Source: Pantoea sp. At-9b (GTDB taxonomy: Bacteria; Pseudomonadota; Gammaproteobacteria; Enterobacterales; Enterobacteriaceae). Taken from it: DNA of 64,000 nucleotides. A program made the translations under genes and the position numbers. Below the pieces are notes generated by a model that was not told the origin of the DNA, did not search any database, and saw only the letters and a list, made by a program, of their open reading frames with translations. Where the stretch lies: positions 310,001 to 374,000 of the forward strand of contig NC_014837.1 of the NCBI RefSeq assembly GCF_000175935.2, in the 5' to 3' direction. Below, piece by piece: positions 3,473-33,109 of the stretch; position 1 is the first letter of the stretch, and every line of letters starts with the position of its first letter.

Positions 3473-4837
3473 ATGGCAAAAGAGAAAAAACGCGGCTTTT
3501 TTTCCTGGCTAGGCTTTGGCAAAGAAGAAGAGACGCAACAGCCTGCCGAAGAGCAGCAACAACCCGCTGAGGTGGCGCAGGAGCCAGCCGTTGAAGAGAG
3601 CGCGTTAGATCGCGCCGAAGCGCAGGCGGAAGAAACCGTTGCCGTCACCGAGCAGGTGGCTGAGCAGCCGGTTGCCGCGCCGGAGGTTGTTGTCGCAGAA
3701 GAAGCCCTGCCAGAAACGCAGCAGCAACCGGAGCTTGAGCCGGTAGCCGAAGCCACGCAGGACGAAGAAGACAGCCCGCTCAGCGATGAAGAGCTGGAAG
3801 CGTTGGCGTTGGCAGAAGACGCACCCGAAGCGGAGCCGGAGGTCGTTGAGGATACCGTCAGCGATCTGCCACTGGCCGCCGCCCCAATGGTGGCGCAGGA
3901 GCAGGAGCGCCCCACCAAAGAGGGCTTCTTTGCCCGTCTGAAACGCAGCCTGGTAAAAACCCGTGCCAATCTGGGTTCTGGCTTTATCAGTCTGTTCCGC
4001 GGCAAAAAAATCGATGACGATCTGTTTGAGGAACTGGAAGAGCAGTTGCTGATTGCGGACGTTGGGGTTGAAACCACGCGTCGCATCATCACGAATCTGA
4101 CGCAGCAGGCAGACCGCAAACAACTGCGTGATGCGGAAGCGCTGTATGGCCTGTTGAAAACCGAGATGGCCGGGATTCTCGACAAAGTGGATGCGCCGCT
4201 GGATGTCTCCGGAAAAACACCGTTTGTTATCCTGATGGTTGGGGTCAACGGGGTCGGTAAAACCACCACCATCGGCAAGCTGGCGCGCCAGTATCAGGCC
4301 GAAGGCAAATCCGTGATGCTGGCGGCGGGCGATACCTTCCGTGCGGCTGCGGTAGAGCAATTGCAGGTCTGGGGTCAGCGCAACAACATCCCGGTTATCG
4401 CGCAGCATACCGGTGCGGATTCCGCGTCAGTGATTTTTGACGCCATCCAGGCTGCGAAAGCGCGTAACGTCGATGTGTTGATCGCCGATACCGCCGGACG
4501 TCTGCAAAACAAATCGCACCTGATGGAAGAACTGAAGAAAATCACCCGCGTGATGAAGAAACTGGATGAAGATGCGCCGCATGAAGTGATGCTGACCATC
4601 GATGCCAGCACCGGGCAGAACGCCATCAGCCAGGCGAAACTGTTCCATGAAGCGGTGGGCCTGACCGGCATCACCCTGACAAAACTGGATGGCACCGCGA
4701 AAGGTGGTGTGATCTTCTCGGTTGCCGATCAGTTTGGCATTCCGATTCGTTATATCGGTGTCGGGGAAGGCATCGAGGATTTACGGCCGTTTAAGGCCGC
4801 AGACTTTATTGAGGCACTGTTTGCCCGAGAGGACTAA
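3473..4837 (+). CDS. ftsY: Signal recognition particle receptor FtsY
   Basis: 454 residues. SRP receptor GTPase that docks SRP-ribosome complexes at the inner membrane. An acidic Glu/Ala/Gln-rich A domain (about residues 10-140) precedes the NG domain: G1 GVNGVGKTTT near residue 257, DTAGR near 338, TKLDGTAKGG near 402. Shorter than E. coli FtsY (497 residues) mostly through the variable A domain. First gene of the conserved ftsY-ftsE-ftsX cluster, 5 bases before ftsE. Confidence 0.98.
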   Translation: MAKEKKRGFFSWLGFGKEEETQQPAEEQQQPAEVAQEPAVEESALDRAEAQAEETVAVTEQVAEQPVAAPEVVVAEEALPETQQQPELEPVAEATQDEEDSPLSDEELEALALAEDAPEAEPEVVEDTVSDLPLAAAPMVAQEQERPTKEGFFARLKRSLVKTRANLGSGFISLFRGKKIDDDLFEELEEQLLIADVGVETTRRIITNLTQQADRKQLRDAEALYGLLKTEMAGILDKVDAPLDVSGKTPFVILMVGVNGVGKTTTIGKLARQYQAEGKSVMLAAGDTFRAAAVEQLQVWGQRNNIPVIAQHTGADSASVIFDAIQAAKARNVDVLIADTAGRLQNKSHLMEELKKITRVMKKLDEDAPHEVMLTIDASTGQNAISQAKLFHEAVGLTGITLTKLDGTAKGGVIFSVADQFGIPIRYIGVGEGIEDLRPFKAADFIEALFARED

Positions 4838-13533: not shown

Positions 13534-13573
13534 CTGTCACATTCCCGTCATTAACCTGTTATTTTTCCGTCAT
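13534..13573 (+). promoter_or_regulatory. Tandem Pho box upstream of ugpB
   Basis: Four 7-base repeats at an 11-base period: CTGTCAC (13534), CCGTCAT (13545), CTGTTAT (13556), CCGTCAT (13567), separated by 4-base AT-rich spacers. This is the PhoB recognition layout, two Pho boxes in series. CATGTT at 13584-13589 lies 10 bases past the last repeat, where a -10 would be expected. The E. coli ugp operon is PhoB-activated. Confidence 0.88.
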
Positions 13574-22229: not shown

Positions 22230-22336
22230 GCCTTTTTCTCCGACATTCGGCAACGATCCCGCTTCCCGCGCCCCGTTTACAATCGCATGACAATTTAATG
22301 ATAGACTCAGCGTATCTCTGACCTCAGGCGCTTACG

Positions 22337-23332
22337 ATGAAGAAAAAAAGACCGGTACTACAGGACGTTGCCGATCGCGTCGGCATCACCAAAATGACCG
22401 TCAGCCGCTACCTGCGCAATCCCGAGCAGGTTTCCGCTGCGCTGCGTGACAAAATCGCCATTGCGCTGGATGAGCTGGGTTATATCCCCAATCGCGCGCC
22501 AGACATGCTCTCTAACGCCACCAGTCGTGCGATCGGCGTTTTGCTGCCATCACTGACTAACCAGGTATTTGCCGACGTGCTGCGCGGGATTGAAACCGTC
22601 ACCGATGAGGCGGGTTATCAGACGCTGGTGGCACACTTCGGCTATAACGCGCAGAAAGAGGAGCTTCAGCTGCGTTCGCTGTTGGGCTGGAACATCGATG
22701 GGGTGATCCTGACGGAACGCACCCATACGCCGGGCACGCTGCGGATGCTGGAAGTTGCCGGCATCCCGGTGATTGAAATGATGGACTCGGTCTCACCTTG
22801 TCTCGATATGGCGGTGGGCTTTAATAACGTCGAAGCGGCGCGTCAGATGACCCATGCTATCCTGAAAAAAGGCCATCGCCACACCGTCTACCTCGGCGCG
22901 CGCCTTGATGAACGTACCCTCCAGAAACAGCAGGGCTACGAGCAGGCGATGCGTGAAGCCGGGCTGACGCCGCATAGCGTGATGATGGAAGATGCCTCGT
23001 CTTTTAGCGCCGGTGCCTTGCTGTTACGTGAGGCGCAACGATGCTACCCGCAAACCGACAGTTTGTTCTGTACCAACGATGACCTTGCGGTCGGTGCCAT
23101 GTTTGAGTGCCAGCGTCAGGGGTTGCGCGTACCGGACCAAATGGCGATTGCCGGTTTCCACGGTCACGACATCACCCAGGTGGTGAATCCTCGCCTGGCG
23201 ACGGTACTGACCCCGCGTGAACGCATGGGGCGGGAATCGGCGGCGATGTTGCTGGCGCGGATTGGCGGCGATCGTTCCGTTACCGTACCCCTGGATGTCG
23301 GGTTTGAAATTGCCGAAGGCGGCAGCATCTGA
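22337..23332 (+). CDS. gntR: Gluconate operon repressor GntR (LacI family)
   Basis: 331 residues. N-terminal LacI-type helix-turn-helix LQDVADRVGITKMTVSRYLRNPEQVS, then a periplasmic-binding-protein-like sensor domain (SRAIGVLLPSLTNQVFADVLRGIE). In E. coli it represses gntT, gntKU and the Entner-Doudoroff genes until gluconate binds. A matching operator lies between gntR and gntK. ATG at 22337 gives the expected length. Confidence 0.97.
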   Translation: MKKKRPVLQDVADRVGITKMTVSRYLRNPEQVSAALRDKIAIALDELGYIPNRAPDMLSNATSRAIGVLLPSLTNQVFADVLRGIETVTDEAGYQTLVAHFGYNAQKEELQLRSLLGWNIDGVILTERTHTPGTLRMLEVAGIPVIEMMDSVSPCLDMAVGFNNVEAARQMTHAILKKGHRHTVYLGARLDERTLQKQQGYEQAMREAGLTPHSVMMEDASSFSAGALLLREAQRCYPQTDSLFCTNDDLAVGAMFECQRQGLRVPDQMAIAGFHGHDITQVVNPRLATVLTPRERMGRESAAMLLARIGGDRSVTVPLDVGFEIAEGGSI

Positions 23333-25454: not shown

Positions 25455-27080
25455 TTATTCATCATCCCGGTCGTCATCCGGCTGTTCCAGCACCGTATAT
25501 GCCACGGCACAGAACAGCGAATTCAGACGCTTCATATCTCCCAGCAATCCCAGATGCAGTGAACTGGTCTCGATACTCTGCACGTTTTGGCGATGCAGAC
25601 GTTCAACGTGCGCGTGGGAGAAACGGCGAATCAGAATACGGAAGCGATGTTTGGAACGGCGCAGGCGTTTGGCGCTGGCGACATCGTGGGATAAAAACAC
25701 CGACAGACTCAGGCGCAGGTTATTCAGCAGTTGCTCCTGTAAGGTCTCCAGCTCCTCCAGCCCTTCCTGTGAGAAGGCACGACGAGCGGCCAGCGCTTTG
25801 TCGGCCACGTCAGCGCTCATGCGTTCGATGATGTCGCCCGCCTGTTCCAGGTTGAGCGCCATTTCGATGATCTCAGCCCAGCGGCGCGAATCCTCTTCCG
25901 CTAAATCCTCCTTCTGCATGCGCGCCAGATAGAGTTTGATGGCGGTGTACAACACATCGACATCATCATCCAGCCGCCGCACCGCGCGCTCCTCGCGCAA
26001 CTCGCCGTGCACCACCTTGCTGAAGGTTTCGACCATCTGCTCGACCACATCGCCAATACGCAGCGTTTCACGCGCGGCATTGACCAGCGCCAGTGCCGGG
26101 GTGTCCAGCGCGCTGCTGTCGAGGTGTTTCGGCTTCAGAACGGTATCGAGTTCGGTATCGTCGCTGATCATCCGGTTACACAGACGTGCCATGAGATCGG
26201 CGAAGGGCACCATCGCCAGACAGCGAATCAGGTTGTAAAACACATGGAAGAAGATCACCAACTCTTCGTCGTTTACCGGCAGCTTATCCAGCAAATCGGC
26301 CACCGGATTAACGAACGGCAGAATAATGATGCTGCCAATCAGTTTGAATAACAGGCTGCCCAGCGCGACACGTTTACCGGCCGCGTTAGATCCGCTGGCA
26401 TTAATCATCGCCAGCAGGCCGCTGCCGAGGTTGGCACCAATCACCAGACAGAGCGCGACTTTAAACGAGATCACCCCGGTTGCCGTCAGCGTGGCGGTAA
26501 TCAGCACCGCCGCCAGGCTGGAATAACTGATGATGGCAAACACTGCGCCAATCAGGGCATCCAGCATGACATCGCCGGTCAGGGTAGCAAATAGCACCTG
26601 TACCCCGGCCGCCTGGGTAATCGGGCGCGCGGCCGCGACAATCAATTGCAGCGCCAGCAGGATCAGACCGAGGCCGATACTGGCGCGTCCTAACTGACCG
26701 AGGCGGGTTTGTTTACGACCGAGGAAAAAGATCACGCCAAACAGGATAAACAGTGGCGATAACCACGAGAGATCGAAGGTCAGGATACGCGCCATCACGG
26801 CCGTACCGACGTCAGCGCCCAGCACCACCACTAAGGCGGGCGTCAGGCTGACAAGGTTCTGCGCCACGAATGAGGTAACCAGCATGGTGGTGGCATTGCT
26901 GCTTTGCACCAGGGCGGTGACGCCAATCCCGGCGAGAAACGCCATGGGCTTTTTCTCGACGCTACGGCTCAGCACCCGGCGCAGATCGGCACCATACACA
27001 CGCATAATGCCGGTACGAACAATGTGTGTGCCCCACACCAGCAGGGCCACGGCAGACAACAGATTTAGCAGGGTTAACAC
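25455..27080 (-). CDS. yjbB: Na/Pi cotransporter family protein YjbB
   Basis: 541 residues from GTG at 27080 (AAGGAG upstream). N-terminal half holds two Na/Pi cotransporter repeats with the QSSNATT and ISYSSLAAV motifs; the C-terminal ~200 residues are PhoU-like helices (TLRIGDVVEQMVETF, LNLEQAGDIIERM). E. coli YjbB has been linked to phosphate export when internal phosphate is high. It is downstream of, and on the same strand as, the putative phosphonate/phosphoester cassette, fitting a phosphate balance role. Near-identical architecture to E. coli. Confidence 0.95.
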   Translation of the reverse strand: MLTLLNLLSAVALLVWGTHIVRTGIMRVYGADLRRVLSRSVEKKPMAFLAGIGVTALVQSSNATTMLVTSFVAQNLVSLTPALVVVLGADVGTAVMARILTFDLSWLSPLFILFGVIFFLGRKQTRLGQLGRASIGLGLILLALQLIVAAARPITQAAGVQVLFATLTGDVMLDALIGAVFAIISYSSLAAVLITATLTATGVISFKVALCLVIGANLGSGLLAMINASGSNAAGKRVALGSLLFKLIGSIIILPFVNPVADLLDKLPVNDEELVIFFHVFYNLIRCLAMVPFADLMARLCNRMISDDTELDTVLKPKHLDSSALDTPALALVNAARETLRIGDVVEQMVETFSKVVHGELREERAVRRLDDDVDVLYTAIKLYLARMQKEDLAEEDSRRWAEIIEMALNLEQAGDIIERMSADVADKALAARRAFSQEGLEELETLQEQLLNNLRLSLSVFLSHDVASAKRLRRSKHRFRILIRRFSHAHVERLHRQNVQSIETSSLHLGLLGDMKRLNSLFCAVAYTVLEQPDDDRDDE

Positions 27081-27097: not shown

Positions 27098-27132
27098 CCG
27101 TCAGGCTTTAAAGCAGATTGCCAGCCTGACGG
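27098..27132 (-). other. Inverted repeat in the yjbB leader
   Basis: CCGTCAGGCT (27098-27107) and AGCCTGACGG (27123-27132) form a perfect 10-bp stem with a 15-base loop, ending about 18 bases upstream of the yjbB GTG start. There is no T-run, so it is either a leader structure affecting translation or an operator. Confidence 0.5.
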
Positions 27133-27187: not shown

Positions 27188-28180
27188 TTAAGCGACCTGG
27201 CGCAACGTCGACATCTCTAACTGTAGTCCAATCTGCATTCCGGCGGGGTGTAAATCTGCCACACTGCGGTTCAGAACATCGACTGAAAGTTCCACATTGT
27301 GCGCCAGCACACGATAACGGATCACGTTGCCCAACAGGCTATGGCTGAGGATGGTGGCCGCAATCCCCGACTCGGGCGCACCAATTAAAATCGATTCCGG
27401 GCGAATGGCCACCTGACCGGTAAACGTCTGGCCGGTCAGCTGTGTTGCCTGTTCGGCGCTCAGCAGGTTGTAGTTACCGATAAAACCGGCGGCAAACAGA
27501 TCGGCCGGTTGAGTATACAGCGCTTCAGCATTGCCGTTTTGCACGATTTTTCCACGGTTCATCAACACAATGCGATCGGACAGGGTTAACGCCTCTTCCT
27601 GGTCGTGGGTCACGAAGATGGTGGTGAGTTTCAGTTCTTGCTGAATATTACGGATTTGCTCGCGTAGATGGCGGCGAATACGTGCATCCAGCGCCGACAG
27701 CGGTTCATCCAGCAGCAGCAGGCGTGGACGTGTCACCAGCGAACGCGCCAGCGCCACGCGCTGACACTGGCCGCCTGAGAGCTGATGGGGATAGCGGCGG
27801 GCGAAGTCGGTCAGCTCCACCAGCGCCAGGGCTTCCATCACCCGTTTCTGGATCTCACTCGCGGCCATTTTCTGCATTTTTAGGCCAAACGCGACATTCT
27901 TTTCCACCGTCATATTCGGGAACAGCGCGTAGCTCTGAAACACCATACCGATGGTGCGCTTCTGCGGCGGCAGCGGCACGATATCCTGACCCTGCAACAA
28001 AATTTTGCCGCTGTCGACGGAGGTCAGCCCGGCAATACAACGCAACAGCGTCGATTTGCCACAGCCGCTCGGGCCGAGCAGGGTGACAAACTCACCCTCA
28101 TCGGCGCTGAAATCGATGTTTTCGAAAATGGTGGTCGGGCCGTAGCTTTTATTTAGCTGTGTAACATTCAGGTAACTCAT
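27188..28180 (-). CDS. ABC importer ATPase of the putative phosphonate/phosphoester cassette
   Basis: 330 residues. Walker [10 protein letters not shown] near residue 36, signature LSGGQCQRVALARS (Cys in place of the usual Arg), Walker B LLLLDEPLSALD, H-loop VTHDQ, and a C-terminal TOBE-like domain. Belongs to the PotA/FbpC/PhnT group. Two bases after the downstream permease, last gene of the five-gene operon. Substrate not determined by sequence; similarity in layout to phnSTUV transporters suggests an organophosphorus compound. Confidence 0.85.
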   Translation of the reverse strand: MSYLNVTQLNKSYGPTTIFENIDFSADEGEFVTLLGPSGCGKSTLLRCIAGLTSVDSGKILLQGQDIVPLPPQKRTIGMVFQSYALFPNMTVEKNVAFGLKMQKMAASEIQKRVMEALALVELTDFARRYPHQLSGGQCQRVALARSLVTRPRLLLLDEPLSALDARIRRHLREQIRNIQQELKLTTIFVTHDQEEALTLSDRIVLMNRGKIVQNGNAEALYTQPADLFAAGFIGNYNLLSAEQATQLTGQTFTGQVAIRPESILIGAPESGIAATILSHSLLGNVIRYRVLAHNVELSVDVLNRSVADLHPAGMQIGLQLEMSTLRQVA

Positions 28181-28182
28181 GG

Positions 28183-28968
28183 TCAGCCTCGTTCAGGATT
28201 GAGGGCGTTCGCCAGCCAGGTGACCAGCAGGACGACAACAAAATAGGAGATCACCAGCGCGCTGGTGAAATGGCCGCTGCCGTTGCGCATGTTGTAGAGA
28301 TAAACCTGCAAAGTTTCATAGCGGGTGCCGACCAGCAGGTTAGCGAATACAAACTCACCTATCAGGAAAGAGAAGGAGAGCAGCACGGCGATAAATACCC
28401 CTTTGCGCAGATTGGGCAGCACCACAAACAACGCCGCCTGCCAGGTACTGGCCCCCAGCAGATGCGCGGCATCAATCAACTCTTTCAGGTTGATGGCCTG
28501 CATATTGTTGGAGATGGCGCGATAGATAAAAGGCAGCGCGATGGTGAAGTAGCAGCCAATCAGAATCCACGGTGTGCCGGTTAGCATCAGCGGTGATGAG
28601 GAGTAGAGCTGCAACAGACCGACCGATGACACCACTGGCGGTACGGCGAACGGCATCAGAATCAGCACGTTCATTACCGCGTCCAGCTTTGGAAAGTAGT
28701 AAGCGATCACAAACATCGCAGGCAGCACCAGCACTAACGAGAACAGCAGCGCACCAAAGCAAATCAGTAACGAATGACCCAGCGCGGTCAGGAAGCGGCT
28801 GTCGCTCCACAGTTCAAAGAACCATTTCAGCGTGTAGCCCTGCGGCAGAATGGTGTTGCTCCAGTCGGAGGAGAGCGCATACAACAGCGTTGCCAGCAGC
28901 GGTGCCGCCAGAATCACCAGCAGCAGCCAAACTATCAGGCGATGGTAAAGTTTTTCGACGCGAGACAT
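28183..28968 (-). CDS. ABC importer permease 2 of the cassette
   Basis: 261 residues, six membrane helices expected, beginning LYHRLIVWLLLVILAAPLLATLLYALSSDW. The EAA-type loop appears as ELIDAAHLLGASTWQAALFVVLPNLRKG. Resembles the PotC/PhnV class. Ten bases after permease 1 and two before the ATPase gene. Confidence 0.85.
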   Translation of the reverse strand: MSRVEKLYHRLIVWLLLVILAAPLLATLLYALSSDWSNTILPQGYTLKWFFELWSDSRFLTALGHSLLICFGALLFSLVLVLPAMFVIAYYFPKLDAVMNVLILMPFAVPPVVSSVGLLQLYSSSPLMLTGTPWILIGCYFTIALPFIYRAISNNMQAINLKELIDAAHLLGASTWQAALFVVLPNLRKGVFIAVLLSFSFLIGEFVFANLLVGTRYETLQVYLYNMRNGSGHFTSALVISYFVVVLLVTWLANALNPERG

Positions 28969-28978
28969 GGGCCGCTCC

Positions 28979-29824
28979 TCAGGACGGTTTGGCGTTGAGA
29001 TAACTGCGGCGCACCAGATACTGCTGCACCACGGTAATCACCGCCATCAACAGCACCAGCAGCATCGCCAGTGCGCCACCGGTATTGGGATCAAGCGAAA
29101 TATCGCCCGACACCAGTGCGGCAATACGTACCGGCACCACGTTAAAGTTACCGGTGGTGAGCGCATAGATAGTGGCGTAAGCGCCCAAGGCATTTGCCAG
29201 CAGAATGACAAAGGTGCCGAGCAGTGCCGGGAACAAGATTGGCAGTCCGATATGCCACCAGTAACGCCAGCGGCTGGCTCCGAGCAGCGCGGCGGATTCC
29301 TGCCAGTCCTGGCGCAGACCATCAAAGGCGGGATAGAGCAGCAGAATGCCGAGCGGGATCTGGAACCAGGTGTAAACAATCACCATGCCGTCGCGCGAGA
29401 ACAGTTTGAAGCTTTCCAGCAAATTGTAATGGCGCAGCAGCAACGTCAGGCAGCCGTTCAGCCCCAGCAAAATGACAAAGGCAAACGCCAGCGGCACGCC
29501 GGCGAAGTTACTGGTCATATTGGTGAATGACATCAAAAAACGCTGAAAGCGTCCGCTGCCCATCTGATGCAGTGAATATCCGGCGACCAGCGCGATGAGC
29601 AGGCCATAGATGCTCGACCAGATGGAGATATCCAGCGACAGGCGAAATGCCTGCAAATAGAACGGCGAGGTCAGGATATCGGTGTAGTTATCCAGTCCCC
29701 AGCTTTCGTTCATGTCGCTCCAGAAGCTGTTGATGGCGATCCATAACAACGGTGCGAGCTGGAACGCCACCCAGAACAGGGCAAACGGCAGCAACAACAG
29801 CAGCGCGATGCTTTTACCCTTCAT
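28979..29824 (-). CDS. ABC importer permease 1 of the cassette
   Basis: 281 residues from ATG at 29824; a longer frame to 29995 lies inside the hydrolase gene and adds no hydrophobic family sequence. Six membrane helices expected, starting KGKSIALLLLLPFALFWVAFQLAPLLW. EAA-type loop QESAALLGASRWRYWWHIGLPIL. PotB/PhnU class. Overlaps the hydrolase gene by 11 bases, so the two are co-translated. Confidence 0.85.
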   Translation of the reverse strand: MKGKSIALLLLLPFALFWVAFQLAPLLWIAINSFWSDMNESWGLDNYTDILTSPFYLQAFRLSLDISIWSSIYGLLIALVAGYSLHQMGSGRFQRFLMSFTNMTSNFAGVPLAFAFVILLGLNGCLTLLLRHYNLLESFKLFSRDGMVIVYTWFQIPLGILLLYPAFDGLRQDWQESAALLGASRWRYWWHIGLPILFPALLGTFVILLANALGAYATIYALTTGNFNVVPVRIAALVSGDISLDPNTGGALAMLLVLLMAVITVVQQYLVRRSYLNAKPS

Positions 29825-30632
29825 GACGCGGCTCCGCCAGCAGCTCACGGCACACCGGTTTGTCATGCTCAACGCCCAACAGGGTGCAGACGATGCCGCA
29901 CAACTCGGTCTGTTGTGGTTGCAGATCCGGCTGTTTCGAAAAGCCTGCACCAAACACAAACAGCGGCACGTTGGTCTCCTCCGGCAGAATCCCACCGTGT
30001 GAGCGATCGTCGTTCATGCCATGGTCGGCGGTGACAATCACCTGATAACCCGCCGCCAGCCAGCCCGGCATCCAGTGCGACAGATACCCATCGGCCATGC
30101 GCGCGCGGTTGCGGTATTGCGGCGATGACAGGCTATGTTTATGCCCGGCATCGTCAATATTCATCGGGTGGATCAGCAGAAAGTCCGGGTCGTGACGCAG
30201 ACGCAGGCTTTCCGCGTCTTCAAACAGGTGGGAATCCGGGTAGCCGTCGTCCCAGTAAAAGTGCCCGTATTGGATGGGCAGGTCAGGCGCGACCGTATGC
30301 CGGTCGCGCGCTGCGTTGAACGGGGTCTGATTATACAGCTCACTCACCCAGTGGTAGGCCGCAGCGGCGGTGGTTAAACCGGCGGCGCGGGCATAATGGA
30401 AGATGCTGCGCTCGTTGCTCAATCGGCTGACGCCATTATGAATAATGCCGCTGCGCACCGGCGGGATGCCGGTGAGAATGCATTCATACAGCGGACGCGA
30501 CAGCGACGGCAGCTCGCAGGTCAGGGTGTAATATTGGCCATTGCCCTGCGCGCATTCGGCAAACAGGTAACCCATTGCATGCTGCGCCACCTGATTGCTC
30601 AGCCCATCCAGTACCACCAGGATTGTTTTCAT
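29814..30632 (-). CDS. Cytoplasmic alkaline-phosphatase-superfamily hydrolase
   Basis: 272 residues, no signal peptide. Metal-hydrolase residues of the superfamily are visible: D9 in VVLDG, a candidate nucleophile Ser45 in ELPSLSRPLYECILTG, D160/H164 in IDDAGH, and ADHG near residue 200 followed by SHGG. The nucleotide pyrophosphatase/phosphonoacetate hydrolase branch shares this layout, usually with Thr as nucleophile. It is embedded between the binding protein and permease genes (10-base gap, 11-base overlap), so it probably cleaves the imported ligand inside the cell. Ligand unknown. Confidence 0.82.
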   Translation of the reverse strand: MKTILVVLDGLSNQVAQHAMGYLFAECAQGNGQYYTLTCELPSLSRPLYECILTGIPPVRSGIIHNGVSRLSNERSIFHYARAAGLTTAAAAYHWVSELYNQTPFNAARDRHTVAPDLPIQYGHFYWDDGYPDSHLFEDAESLRLRHDPDFLLIHPMNIDDAGHKHSLSSPQYRNRARMADGYLSHWMPGWLAAGYQVIVTADHGMNDDRSHGGILPEETNVPLFVFGAGFSKQPDLQPQQTELCGIVCTLLGVEHDKPVCRELLAEPRHEG

Positions 30633-30642
30633 CCCCTTCTCC

Positions 30643-31704
30643 TTACTGCTGCATATTGATGATCACGTTCTCCTGCCACAGACGCGGCAGTGCTTTTGAC
30701 GATTTATCCCAGGCAGCCTGGTCTTTAATCGGACGGGCATTTTTATACTCAGATTCCGGCAGCAATTTGGCCTGCACGTCAGCTGGCAGCGTGAGGTATT
30801 TGGCACGAATCGGACGAGCGTAGCCTTTCGCCAGGTTAGTCTGACCGGCATCAGAGAAGATATATTCGCGTGCCAGTTTGGCGGCGTTCGGGTGCTTGGC
30901 GTATTTGTTGATGATGGTGCTGTAGCCGGACGTTACGGAACCGTCAGAAGGGATCACCACTTCATAGCGGCTTTTGTCGATCTGATCGCGGTAGTTCAGA
31001 CCGTTGAAGTCCCACACCACTGCCAGCTGGATTTCGCCTTTCTCAATGTTGGCAATCACCGGATCGGTCACGCCCAGACGGCCTTGTTTGGCGAGGTCAG
31101 CAAAAAAGTTCAGTGCCGGTTTCAGGTTCTTCTCATCACCGCCCAGCGCGTAGTTGGCCGCCAGTACGCCGTTAGCCGCCTGAGCAGCTACGCCAACGTC
31201 ACCGATAGTGACCACATACTTACCTTTTTTCAGATCGGCCCAACTATGCGGGATATCTTTGATCTGCTGTTTGTCGACGAGGAACGCGATGGTGCCGGTA
31301 TAGGCCAGCATCCAGTTACCTTCTTTATCTTTTGCCCAGTCCGGCACCTGATCCCAGTGTGTCGGTTTGTAAGGCTGTGCCAGCCCCTTCGCGACGGCCA
31401 CCGGTCCAAATGCGGCACCCACGTCACCGATATCGGCGCTGGCGTTCTCTTTCTCTGCGGCAAATTTCGCCAGCTCCTGCGCCGATGACATATCGGTATC
31501 GCTGTGTTTCAGGCCATATTTGCTGCTGATGTCATTCCAGGTATCTTTCCAGTTAGCCCAGCTATCTGGCATACCGACGCTGTTGATTTGACCTTCGCTG
31601 CGCGCGGCTTTTTCCAGCGCGGCGAGGTCGTTGTCGGCAGCCTGCGCGGCTGGCAACGCAAGCAGTACAGCACTGGCTACTACAGAGGCGATTAACGCTT
31701 TCAT
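30643..31704 (-). CDS. ABC importer periplasmic solute-binding protein of the cassette
   Basis: 353 residues from ATG at 31704. Signal peptide MKALIASVVASAVLLALPAAQA. Mature part is a spermidine/putrescine/iron-type (PotD/FbpA/PhnS-like) binding fold with ADIGDVGAAFGPVAVAKG and VVWDFNGLNYRDQ. First gene of the operon, behind a pstS-like Pho promoter. A longer frame to 31860 runs through that promoter and is rejected. Ligand inferred as phosphonate or phosphate ester. Confidence 0.85.
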   Translation of the reverse strand: MKALIASVVASAVLLALPAAQAADNDLAALEKAARSEGQINSVGMPDSWANWKDTWNDISSKYGLKHSDTDMSSAQELAKFAAEKENASADIGDVGAAFGPVAVAKGLAQPYKPTHWDQVPDWAKDKEGNWMLAYTGTIAFLVDKQQIKDIPHSWADLKKGKYVVTIGDVGVAAQAANGVLAANYALGGDEKNLKPALNFFADLAKQGRLGVTDPVIANIEKGEIQLAVVWDFNGLNYRDQIDKSRYEVVIPSDGSVTSGYSTIINKYAKHPNAAKLAREYIFSDAGQTNLAKGYARPIRAKYLTLPADVQAKLLPESEYKNARPIKDQAAWDKSSKALPRLWQENVIINMQQ

Positions 31705-31764
31705 CTCAGTTGCTCCCGGTGTAAGTTGAGGGACATCTTGGTCTAGTCCAGCAAGAACCGAGCC

Positions 31765-31798
31765 AATGTAGCCTTTGCATATGAAGGTTTTATGACTG
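31765..31798 (-). promoter_or_regulatory. Pho-box promoter of the cassette operon
   Basis: On the minus strand CAGTCAT (31792-31798), AAAA, CCTTCAT (31781-31787), ten bases, then TACATT (31765-31770). Repeat length, 4-base A-rich spacer and 10-base gap to the -10 reproduce the E. coli pstS Pho promoter layout. The repeats differ from CTGTCAT at one and two positions. It lies 60 bases before the binding-protein start. Confidence 0.78.
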
Positions 31799-31867
31799 AG
31801 GCGGTAAAATGTGGTGTGGCGCGCTGATCCACATGTCATGCTGCGACGGAATCGTGCCACGGTAAGC

Positions 31868-31896
31868 GTGTCACCAGATTGTCATCGAACTGTCAT
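31868..31896 (+). promoter_or_regulatory. Triple Pho-box repeat before the GntR-type regulator gene
   Basis: GTGTCAC (31868), TTGTCAT (31879) and CTGTCAT (31890) follow each other at an exact 11-base period with 4-base spacers, in the plus orientation. The last two form a near-consensus Pho box. It lies 33 bases before the regulator start and about 70 bases from the divergent Pho promoter. No convincing -10 at the canonical distance was found. Confidence 0.75.
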
Positions 31897-31929
31897 AGTG
31901 CAGCTTCGCCCCAAAATGAGGCTTTAAAG

Positions 31930-32628
31930 ATGTCGTCGAAAACGGCGGACGTAATCGCAGCCGCGCTGCACAGTCGTATTGATGCAGGAGAGTTCGCCAG
32001 CGGGCGCTTACCGGCTGAACGTAGCCTGAGCGAACAATATTCCACTACGCGCATCACCCTACGCGAAGCGCTGGGGTTGCTGGAAGCGCAGGGCGTTATT
32101 TATCGTGAACTGCGCCGTGGTTGGTTTCTCGCCCCGCCGAGACTGGTGTATAACCCGCTGCACCACAGCCATTTCCACGCCATGGCGGCCCAGCAAGGGC
32201 GTATCGCCAGCACCGAGGTGATTGAAGCGCGCAAGGCACCGGTGCAATCATCGGTGGCGCAGCAACTGCAACTGGCCGAAGGTGATGAGGTTTACCTGAT
32301 TCGTCGTCTGCGCCGTATTGATGGGCGCGCCGTGTTGTATGTGGAGCACTATCTTAACCCACACTATTTTCCGGGCCTGCTCGACGAGGATCTCACTCGC
32401 TCTCTGACCGACCTCTATAACCAGCGTTATGGCATTCGTTACGGCGGCGCTCGATTTACCATTCTGCCGGGGCCATTACCGGCGCGTGCCGCGCCGGCAT
32501 TGAATGTGGCCAGCGGTACCCCCGGATTATTGATCACCCGCACCAACCGTGATCAGCACAAACGCGTCATCGACTGTGACTGTGAATACTGGCGCTATGA
32601 CGCGCTGTGCGTGGATGTCGATGTCTGA
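31930..32628 (+). CDS. GntR-family regulator with UTRA domain
   Basis: 232 residues from ATG at 31930; an in-frame TTG at 31879 lies within the Pho repeats and is unlikely. N-terminal winged helix: VIAAALHSRIDAGEFASGRLPAERSLSEQYSTTRITLREALGLLEAQGVIYRE. C-terminal UTRA ligand-binding domain with EGDEVYLIRRLRRIDGRAVLYVEHYLNP. The HutC/PhnF subgroup includes regulators of phosphonate use. Divergent from the transporter operon, which it probably controls; effector unknown. Confidence 0.87.
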   Translation: MSSKTADVIAAALHSRIDAGEFASGRLPAERSLSEQYSTTRITLREALGLLEAQGVIYRELRRGWFLAPPRLVYNPLHHSHFHAMAAQQGRIASTEVIEARKAPVQSSVAQQLQLAEGDEVYLIRRLRRIDGRAVLYVEHYLNPHYFPGLLDEDLTRSLTDLYNQRYGIRYGGARFTILPGPLPARAAPALNVASGTPGLLITRTNRDQHKRVIDCDCEYWRYDALCVDVDV

Positions 32629-32634
32629 CCATAT

Positions 32635-32650
32635 TGTGATTTTGATCACA
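32635..32650 (+). promoter_or_regulatory. CRP site upstream of psiE
   Basis: TGTGA, six bases, TCACA (32635-32650) is a perfect CRP half-site pair, 49 bases before the psiE start. E. coli psiE is controlled by cAMP-CRP and PhoB. I did not find a clear Pho box in this short gap. Confidence 0.85.
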
Positions 32651-32698: not shown

Positions 32699-33109
32699 AT
32701 GACTGAAAAATCAGCGGCGGGGCAACTGATTGCCACGGCTCTGCAATGGGTGCTGAACCTCGGGTTGGTGATCCTGGCGATCATTCTGGTGGTGTTTCTT
32801 GGCAAGGAAACCATTCATCTGGCCAATGTGTTGTTTAGCACCGGCGAACAGGCATCATCATTTCTGCTGATCGAAGGGATTGTGATCTACTTTCTCTATT
32901 TCGAATTTATCGCGCTGATCGTGAAATATTTCCAGTCGGGCTATCATTTCCCACTGCGCTATTTCGTCTATATCGGCATCACCGCGATTATTCGGTTGAT
33001 CATTGTCGACCACAAAAACCCGTTCGACACGCTGTGCTACTCGGCTGCCATTCTTATTCTGGTGGTGACGCTGTGGTTGGCGAACAGCAACAGATTGAAA
33101 CGCGAGTAA
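32699..33109 (+). CDS. psiE: Phosphate-starvation-inducible membrane protein PsiE
   Basis: 136 residues, four membrane helices. The segments [28 protein letters not shown] and [43 protein letters not shown] are almost the same as in E. coli PsiE. Function unknown. ATG at 32699. Sits next to the putative organophosphorus cassette and follows a CRP site. Confidence 0.96.

Follow-up and report, generated by a model that had tools for sequence, protein, structure and literature searches.

Among described bacterial systems for the uptake of organic phosphorus compounds, the closest in logic to the one treated here is UgpBAEC-UgpQ of Escherichia coli, a glycerophosphocholine ABC transporter acting with a cytosolic glycerophosphodiester phosphodiesterase (GDPD) and induced upon depletion of inorganic phosphate (Pi), as set out in PMC5438359. 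Closest in its transporter parts are two systems for the uptake of 2-aminoethylphosphonate (2AEP), namely PhnSTUV with its regulator PhnR, and AepSTU of Pseudomonas putida BIRD-1. Here, we describe a six-gene set in a 64,000-nucleotide stretch of the Pantoea sp. At-9b genome (contig NC_014837.1, positions 310,001 to 374,000; hereafter the window), in which an operon for a substrate-binding protein (SBP), a hydrolase and an ABC transporter diverges from the gene of a GntR/UTRA regulator. We consider it very probable that this is an organophosphorus import-and-hydrolyse operon under Pi control; the kind of system is known from Ugp and the transporter half is partly known already, while the combination of parts is new.

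The transporter half is best approached through AepSTU. Its binding protein, PPUBIRD1_3891 (PF13343), was named AepS and is also called PhnD3, and in PMC8316502 AepSTU is assigned as an auxiliary 2AEP transporter by means of a triple mutant, the single mutant being without effect. In PMC5082522, the neighbouring GntR protein (PPUBIRD1_3890) and ATPase (PPUBIRD1_3895) are entered with wild-type values of 3.57 and 4.72 and as ‘not detected’ for a phoBR mutant; PPUBIRD1_3891 is not PhoBR-affected in whole cells (2.69 and 2.31) and is reduced in the mutant exoproteome. This numbering, with GntR at 3890, the SBP at 3891, three further genes and the ATPase at 3895, matches the order of the P. putida locus L119 (GntR, SBP, hydrolase, two permeases, ATPase and a phosphatase gene of the HAD family), and by gene order, numbering and Pfam content the window transporter would be the counterpart of AepSTU. 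What was published is the transporter, and the accessible sections of that work do not mention an in-operon hydrolase; nor did we find a description of one among the matches listed in a search of the open-licence PMC literature. The genes of the window locus and its two flanks are as follows.

30643..31704, minus strand: periplasmic SBP of the PF13343 family, 353 residues.
29814..30632, minus strand: predicted cytoplasmic hydrolase of the alkaline phosphatase superfamily, NPP-like, 272 residues.
28979..29824, minus strand: ABC permease 1, 281 residues, PF00528 at 48.4 bits.
28183..28968, minus strand: ABC permease 2, 261 residues, PF00528 at 53.5 bits; best NCBIfam PhnV, 92.5 bits against a cut-off of 358.7.
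27188..28180, minus strand: ABC transporter ATPase, 330 residues, PF00005 and TOBE_2; best NCBIfam PhnT2, 385.3 bits against a cut-off of 457.7.
31930..32628, plus strand: GntR/UTRA regulator, 232 residues from the ATG at 31930; PF07702 at 132.2 bits, PF00392 at 51 bits.
25455..27080, minus strand: yjbB, Na/Pi cotransporter-PhoU family; TIGR01013 at 434.2 bits against a cut-off of 306.15.
32699..33109, plus strand: psiE, a phosphate-starvation-inducible flank; NF002764 at 245.2 bits against a cut-off of 207.

From the SBP to the ATPase, the five minus-strand genes are separated by 10, -11, 10 and 2 bases, the start of permease 1 overlapping the end of the hydrolase gene by 11 bases, with yjbB lying 107 bases downstream of the ATPase and psiE following the divergent regulator. 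An original prediction made from the DNA alone had described this packed operon and its flanks, and coordinates, strands, start and stop codons and all gaps agree with it, both flanks scoring over their profile cut-offs. For the regulator, ATG 31930 is a likelier start codon than TTG 31879, because the latter falls within a Pho box.

The arrangement is conserved. We compared 80 loci, the top scorers among 528 confirmed in a scan of genome contigs and hence weighted towards close relatives (70-99% identity), scoring gene presence as a tblastn match of the window proteins and not as an intact reading frame. All six genes (the regulator and the five operon genes) were matched in 76 of the 80, and so the set is not a chance array. 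Matches in two loci (L053 and L059) come in pieces, and two loci on short stretches (L120 and L121) are among those without the full set; the closest named locus, in Pantoea sp. AS-PWVM4 (L043), has matches at 97-100% to all eight genes of the region. In Pantoea ananatis LMG 2665 (L064:7001-7813) and Erwinia persicina (L066:7001-7810) the hydrolase gene stands by itself adjoining yjbB, with its catalytic residues kept and no transporter or regulator match within the stretch. Across 60 genomes, our own included, the hydrolase was found in 35 (E <= 0.001) and the SBP in 32 (E <= 1e-100): 32 have both, three the hydrolase only (G002, G011 and G012), none the SBP only and 25 neither. One same-genus assembly with 4% contamination holds a second SBP copy beside a hydrolase match in two pieces (G033:C10:789168-791061).

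The original prediction had placed Pho repeats in the divergent promoters, and these were recovered in both directions, the one facing the operon being the weaker.

31868..31896, plus strand: two overlapping Pho boxes formed by three 11-base repeats, facing the regulator (31868-31885 with 3 mismatches, 31879-31896 with 1).
31781..31798, minus strand: Pho box CAGTCATAAAACCTTCAT facing the SBP operon, 3 mismatches to CTGTCATNNNNCTGTCAT.
31765..31770, minus strand: possible -10 element TACATT, as read from the letters, 10 bases after the Pho box.
31739..31750, no strand assigned: palindromic GntR/HutC-type operator TGGTCTAGTCCA, the sole perfect site in the window and in the genome.

Pho-box-like matches with up to 3 mismatches number 15 in the window against 4.67 expected, and the box facing the operon recurs at the same place in other Pantoea loci with 2-5 mismatches. 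Of the 76 orthologous intergenic regions (the 80 loci minus L064, L066, L120 and L121, a wider 103-locus count having included repeated genomes), 48 contain Pho boxes with at most 2 mismatches against 0.25 expected. The operator pattern, which was derived from the window itself and then counted in the other loci, is perfect in 74 of these regions and has one mismatch in the other 2; no perfect match arose in 1520 dinucleotide shuffles, a control that overstates independence because related loci share ancestry. Within its own genome the pattern has 11 one-mismatch sites besides the perfect one, and a backward control of it gave more matches (67 vs 12 on one strand at <=1 mismatch).

Read along the minus strand, the order is Pho box, 10 bases, TACATT, 14 bases and the palindrome TGGACTAGACCA; of 17 upstream regions selected from Enterobacterales, 16 contain TANATTGG and 12 contain TA[CG]ATTGG. 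A simple sigma-70 scan returned no promoter at the operon and 1 promoter-like site elsewhere (4.4 expected), a blank that would not be surprising if this is a PhoB promoter lacking a -35 hexamer. The best-matching operator site of most Pseudomonas loci is not at -47 but a long way upstream of the SBP start, on the side of the regulator. A closely similar 12-mer appears in published work on DasR/NagR, regulators of the same GntR/HutC class. From these motifs we would place the operon in the Pho regulon, with probable direct control by PhoB and by the divergent repressor.

The enzyme encoded within the operon is, by its profile matches, a member of the alkaline phosphatase superfamily whose nearest relatives are the NPP phosphodiesterases. 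It passes the gathering cut-off of PF01663 (Phosphodiest) with 53.9 bits against 23 and stays under that of PF01676 (Metalloenzyme) with 21.1 against 24.3, and its matches include ENPP7 (1.9e-13), Xac NPP (2.9e-13), ENPP6 (4e-10) and PafA (1.2e-7). NPPs are also nearest by fold in a VIA-align comparison, where the 50 listed entries include several sulfatase structures and do not include the phosphonoacetate hydrolase PhnA, an absence that is no evidence of difference. The residues named at the outset (D9, Ser45, D160/H164 and the ADHG motif, A202-D203-H204-G205) are all present, and D9, S45, N66, D160, H164, D203, H204 and H212 are invariant in a 38-sequence alignment that includes the window protein, as is Arg46, adjoining the nucleophile, in this close family; the Asn of the NPP motif GIVHN has its aligned counterpart in N66.

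The fold and catalytic frame are shared with Xanthomonas NPP and vertebrate ENPP6 and ENPP7, but those solved chains have at least 382 residues against the 272 of the window hydrolase. These three are exported enzymes and, like characterised NPPs, use a Thr nucleophile, whereas here Ser45 is found in 38/38 aligned sequences and no signal peptide is apparent, judged by eye. As the nucleophile is Ser and not Thr, we file the enzyme as a superfamily member and not as a classical NPP, and its position among diesterases would suggest phosphodiesterase chemistry. A type I sulfatase, with the nucleophile motif [CS]-x-P-x-R, was rejected, since the hydrolase reads S45-R-P-L-Y and has no sulfatase Pfam match at E <= 0.01, and phosphoglycerate mutase was likewise rejected on the profile scores; neither is the best match, PF01663 being the family over its cut-off, and the outcome named in the original prediction as counting against it did not occur.

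How, then, does the rest of the cassette compare with phosphonate uptake? The nearest curated profiles for the SBP, the ATPase, one permease and the regulator are those of PhnSTUV-PhnR, but every one of these scores is under its curated cut-off and the window operon has a hydrolase in addition. The SBP reaches 48.5 bits on the PhnS-type NCBIfam (cut-off 310), while the best NCBIfam for permease 1 is a sulfate permease subfamily (60.5 bits against 240). The regulator had been proposed as PhnF-like, yet it is nearer PhnR (TIGR03337, 268.2 bits against a cut-off of 296.75) than PhnF (97.6 bits), and its P. putida orthologue, at 292.2 bits on the PhnR profile, is still under that cut-off. The phosphonate side of the original prediction is therefore not upheld as it was worded, and no phnW or phnX was found among the genes scanned at the locus.

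Structural relatives of the SBP include binders of small organophosphates (AfuA, VcA0625, UgpB and P5PA). The Campylobacter jejuni solute-binding protein 5t1p, 66% identical to it, is probably encoded in operon cj0727-cj0732, under PhosSR control. The closest paralogue in the same genome is 33% identical and lies in an importer operon next to a phosphoesterase whose fold is unrelated (G000:C1:3168615-3174182, L212:4616-10183: LacI-type regulator, PF13343-family SBP, two permeases, ATPase and metallophosphoesterase). The best PDB match of that metallophosphoesterase is 2zo9/3d03, presumably GpdQ, and the operon looks like an analogous import-and-hydrolyse set built on an unrelated enzyme. Like this paralogous importer, the GntR operator, the AepSTU counterpart and the pairing of hydrolase and HAD genes in other genera go beyond what the original prediction had noticed.

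Two further genes recur beside the cassette. Of the 80 loci, 53 have a HAD-IB phosphatase gene no more than 6 kb from the hydrolase and on the same strand, and in 11 loci (Ewingella, six Rahnella, two Rouxiella and two Enterobacterales without a genus name) a yjbB match starts 19-43 bases after the end of the HAD match. The earlier suggestion that YjbB belongs with this system gains from this, as yjbB directly follows the HAD gene there and flanks the operon in the window. Three HAD proteins tested score 162-179 bits on TIGR01490, over its cut-off of 98.3, with the HAD histidinol-phosphatases as a sister family under whose cut-off they fall. An unlinked HAD homologue of 48% identity is also present in the window genome (C1:1434175). 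It is not specific to the cassette, because such a homologue occurs in 35 of 36 genomes of the genus, the window genome among them, and five of the 35 are without the cassette.

In the mechanism that we propose, PhoB would drive the SBP operon from the box at 31781-31798, while the UTRA repressor would occupy TGGTCTAGTCCA just downstream of the presumed start site and be released by the imported compound or one of its products. The SBP and ABC transporter would take in a small organophosphorus compound intact, and the hydrolase, with nucleophile Ser45 and a two-metal site formed by D9/D160/H164/D203/H204/H212, would then cleave it in the cytoplasm. The compound is most likely a phosphodiester or phosphonate monoester; a HAD-IB phosphatase, in the window genome perhaps the unlinked 48% homologue, would dephosphorylate the resulting phosphomonoester to Pi, any excess of which YjbB could export. 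Phosphorus scavenging by import of an intact compound and cytoplasmic hydrolysis, as first proposed, is well supported, in keeping with the Pho boxes and the apparent lack of a signal peptide. Among the forms that the system could take, we rate this diester version, with a HAD step after the cleavage, highest, although we put its chances at about even.

The resemblance to UgpBAEC-UgpQ would then be one of Pi-controlled ABC import with an in-operon cytosolic phosphodiesterase, here a predicted one. UgpQ, however, is a GDPD (PF03009), of which a Pfam search found no match in the window operon proteins, whereas the window operon pairs a PF01663 enzyme with a PF13343 SBP and a UTRA regulator. Glycerophosphocholine was considered as the main substrate and is disfavoured: BIRD-1, to judge by gene order a carrier of the cassette, is recorded in PMC5438359 as failing to grow on it, as are glpQ mutants of P. 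stutzeri DSM4166 and P. fluorescens SBW25, the latter a strain that has PhnD3. Free 2AEP is likewise disfavoured, since phnWX is still essential for 2AEP use in P. putida BIRD-1. Neither is therefore a strong candidate as natural substrate, except if expression was the limiting factor.

If the proposed mechanism is correct, it would explain an orphan Pi-responsive operon of Pseudomonas, Pantoea, Rahnella, Vibrio and others, and the auxiliary role of AepSTU in 2AEP uptake would follow from an ester being the true substrate. An unrelated enzyme fold would then join the Ugp principle of diester import and intracellular cleavage, and YjbB would be the outlet through which one particular catabolic operon relieves excess Pi.

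The strongest competitor, which we regard as possible though clearly behind the diester version, holds that the imported compound is a phosphomonoester, for instance phosphoethanolamine or a different amino-alcohol phosphate, and that the hydrolase is a one-step cytoplasmic phosphatase, the HAD protein being accessory or parallel. 2AEP resembles phosphoethanolamine, the hydrolase is compact at 272 residues, its invariant Arg46 could bind a dianionic group, and the HAD and PHP partners score nearest histidinol-phosphatase families, which are amino-alcohol phosphate phosphatases. The reported uptake of 2AEP by AepSTU (PMC8316502) points the same way. Against this stand the closest profiles and folds of the hydrolase, which are diesterases, and the redundancy of a second dedicated phosphatase gene in those 53 loci.

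A wider version of the diester reading is more doubtful still. In it, the hydrolase would found a new family of phosphono-/phospho-diesterases, compact and cytoplasmic and with a Ser nucleophile, for the salvage of esters resembling lipid head groups, with glyceryl-aminoethylphosphonate or glycerophosphoethanolamine as candidate substrates. A single Pho-controlled mineralisation route would then lead from import through ester cleavage and a HAD or PHP phosphatase to Pi export by YjbB. Such a family would be spread over Enterobacterales, Pseudomonas, Vibrio and enterococcal plasmids, and probably Campylobacter.

It is unlikely that the enzyme itself cleaves the C-P bond of an imported phosphonate. 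The PhnS-, PhnT2-, PhnV- and PhnR-type profiles lean towards such a role, PhnA (1ei6) belongs to the same superfamily and was matched at 2.1e-10, and one distant homologue (32%) adjoins TmpA and TmpB. Phosphonoacetate hydrolase, offered at the outset as a comparison, nevertheless fails on the profile, TIGR02335 giving just 21.6 bits against a curated cut-off of 407.55. The lysine pair of PhnA lies in the stretch matching N66-D160 of the hydrolase, whose own lysines are only at 2, 165, 233 and 258, so that the pair has no counterpart there. These two lysines are said to stabilise the PhnA leaving group (PMC10574752), and the requirement for phnWX in BIRD-1, noted above, also tells against C-P cleavage by the hydrolase.

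Similarly improbable is a plain 2AEP importer with the hydrolase as a bystander or as an enzyme for some side product. The P. putida triple-mutant data do show a functional though auxiliary 2AEP transporter (PMC8316502), but the SBP never occurs without the hydrolase in the 60 genomes. The window genome has PhnJ (C-P lyase) and no PhnW match over the cut-off, and 4 of the 32 genomes with SBP and hydrolase (G008, G015, G037 and G046) have neither PhnJ nor PhnW over cut-off, in a search for these two markers. Least likely of all is a carbon or nitrogen source system, for example for a host-derived sugar phosphodiester with Pi release as a by-product, for although many fetched carriers belong to plant-associated genera, and PMC12807533 has Xanthomonas taking up and cleaving the sugar phosphodiester xanthosan for nutrition and Agrobacterium using agrocinopine via ABC transporters, the Pho boxes in 48/76 promoters, the psiE and yjbB flanks in the window and the 66% identical SBP of C. 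jejuni, which is not a plant bacterium, all speak against it.

Beyond the close relatives, 41 of 398 phylum genomes match a broader alignment (E <= 1e-25), including more distant relatives outside the class, and 198 plasmid records have a match, 179 of them from Enterococcus. The one enterococcal locus among the 179 that was examined in detail, on an Enterococcus faecium plasmid (L037:6939-12485), has a hydrolase 42% identical to ours, an SBP, two permease genes (one listed as hypothetical) and an ATPase, no regulator match, and in place of the HAD protein a divergent PHP protein related to histidinol-phosphatases; a glycyl-radical activase gene lies nearby. On a Labrenzia plasmid (L038:6257-8840) the 32% homologue directly follows TmpA and TmpB, both over their NCBIfam cut-offs and both enzymes of 2-trimethylaminoethylphosphonate degradation, an association seen at this one locus and not in the other fetched loci. 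Nine loci (L161-L169), alphaproteobacterial by our assignment of class, carry a hydrolase homologue of about 30% identity with an ABC ATPase match in 8 of the 9; the transporter looks Opp/Dpp-like by eye in L161 and L167 and, judged from a neighbour protein, in L039, and we have treated these homologues as another subfamily.

Some smaller features of the window may be added. Three overlapping Pho-box-like matches with 2 mismatches each and 11-base spacing lie at 13534-13573, and a further such site with 2 mismatches (22287-22304, minus strand) is in the upstream region of a LacI-type regulator gene at 22337. Between the ATPase and yjbB there is a perfect 10-bp inverted repeat, CCGTCAGGCT / AGCCTGACGG (27098-27132), possibly an attenuator or processing site. 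A perfect CRP-like palindrome, TGTGATTTTGATCACA, stands 5' of psiE at 32635-32650 and would fit the control of E. coli psiE, which is reportedly under both PhoB and CRP.

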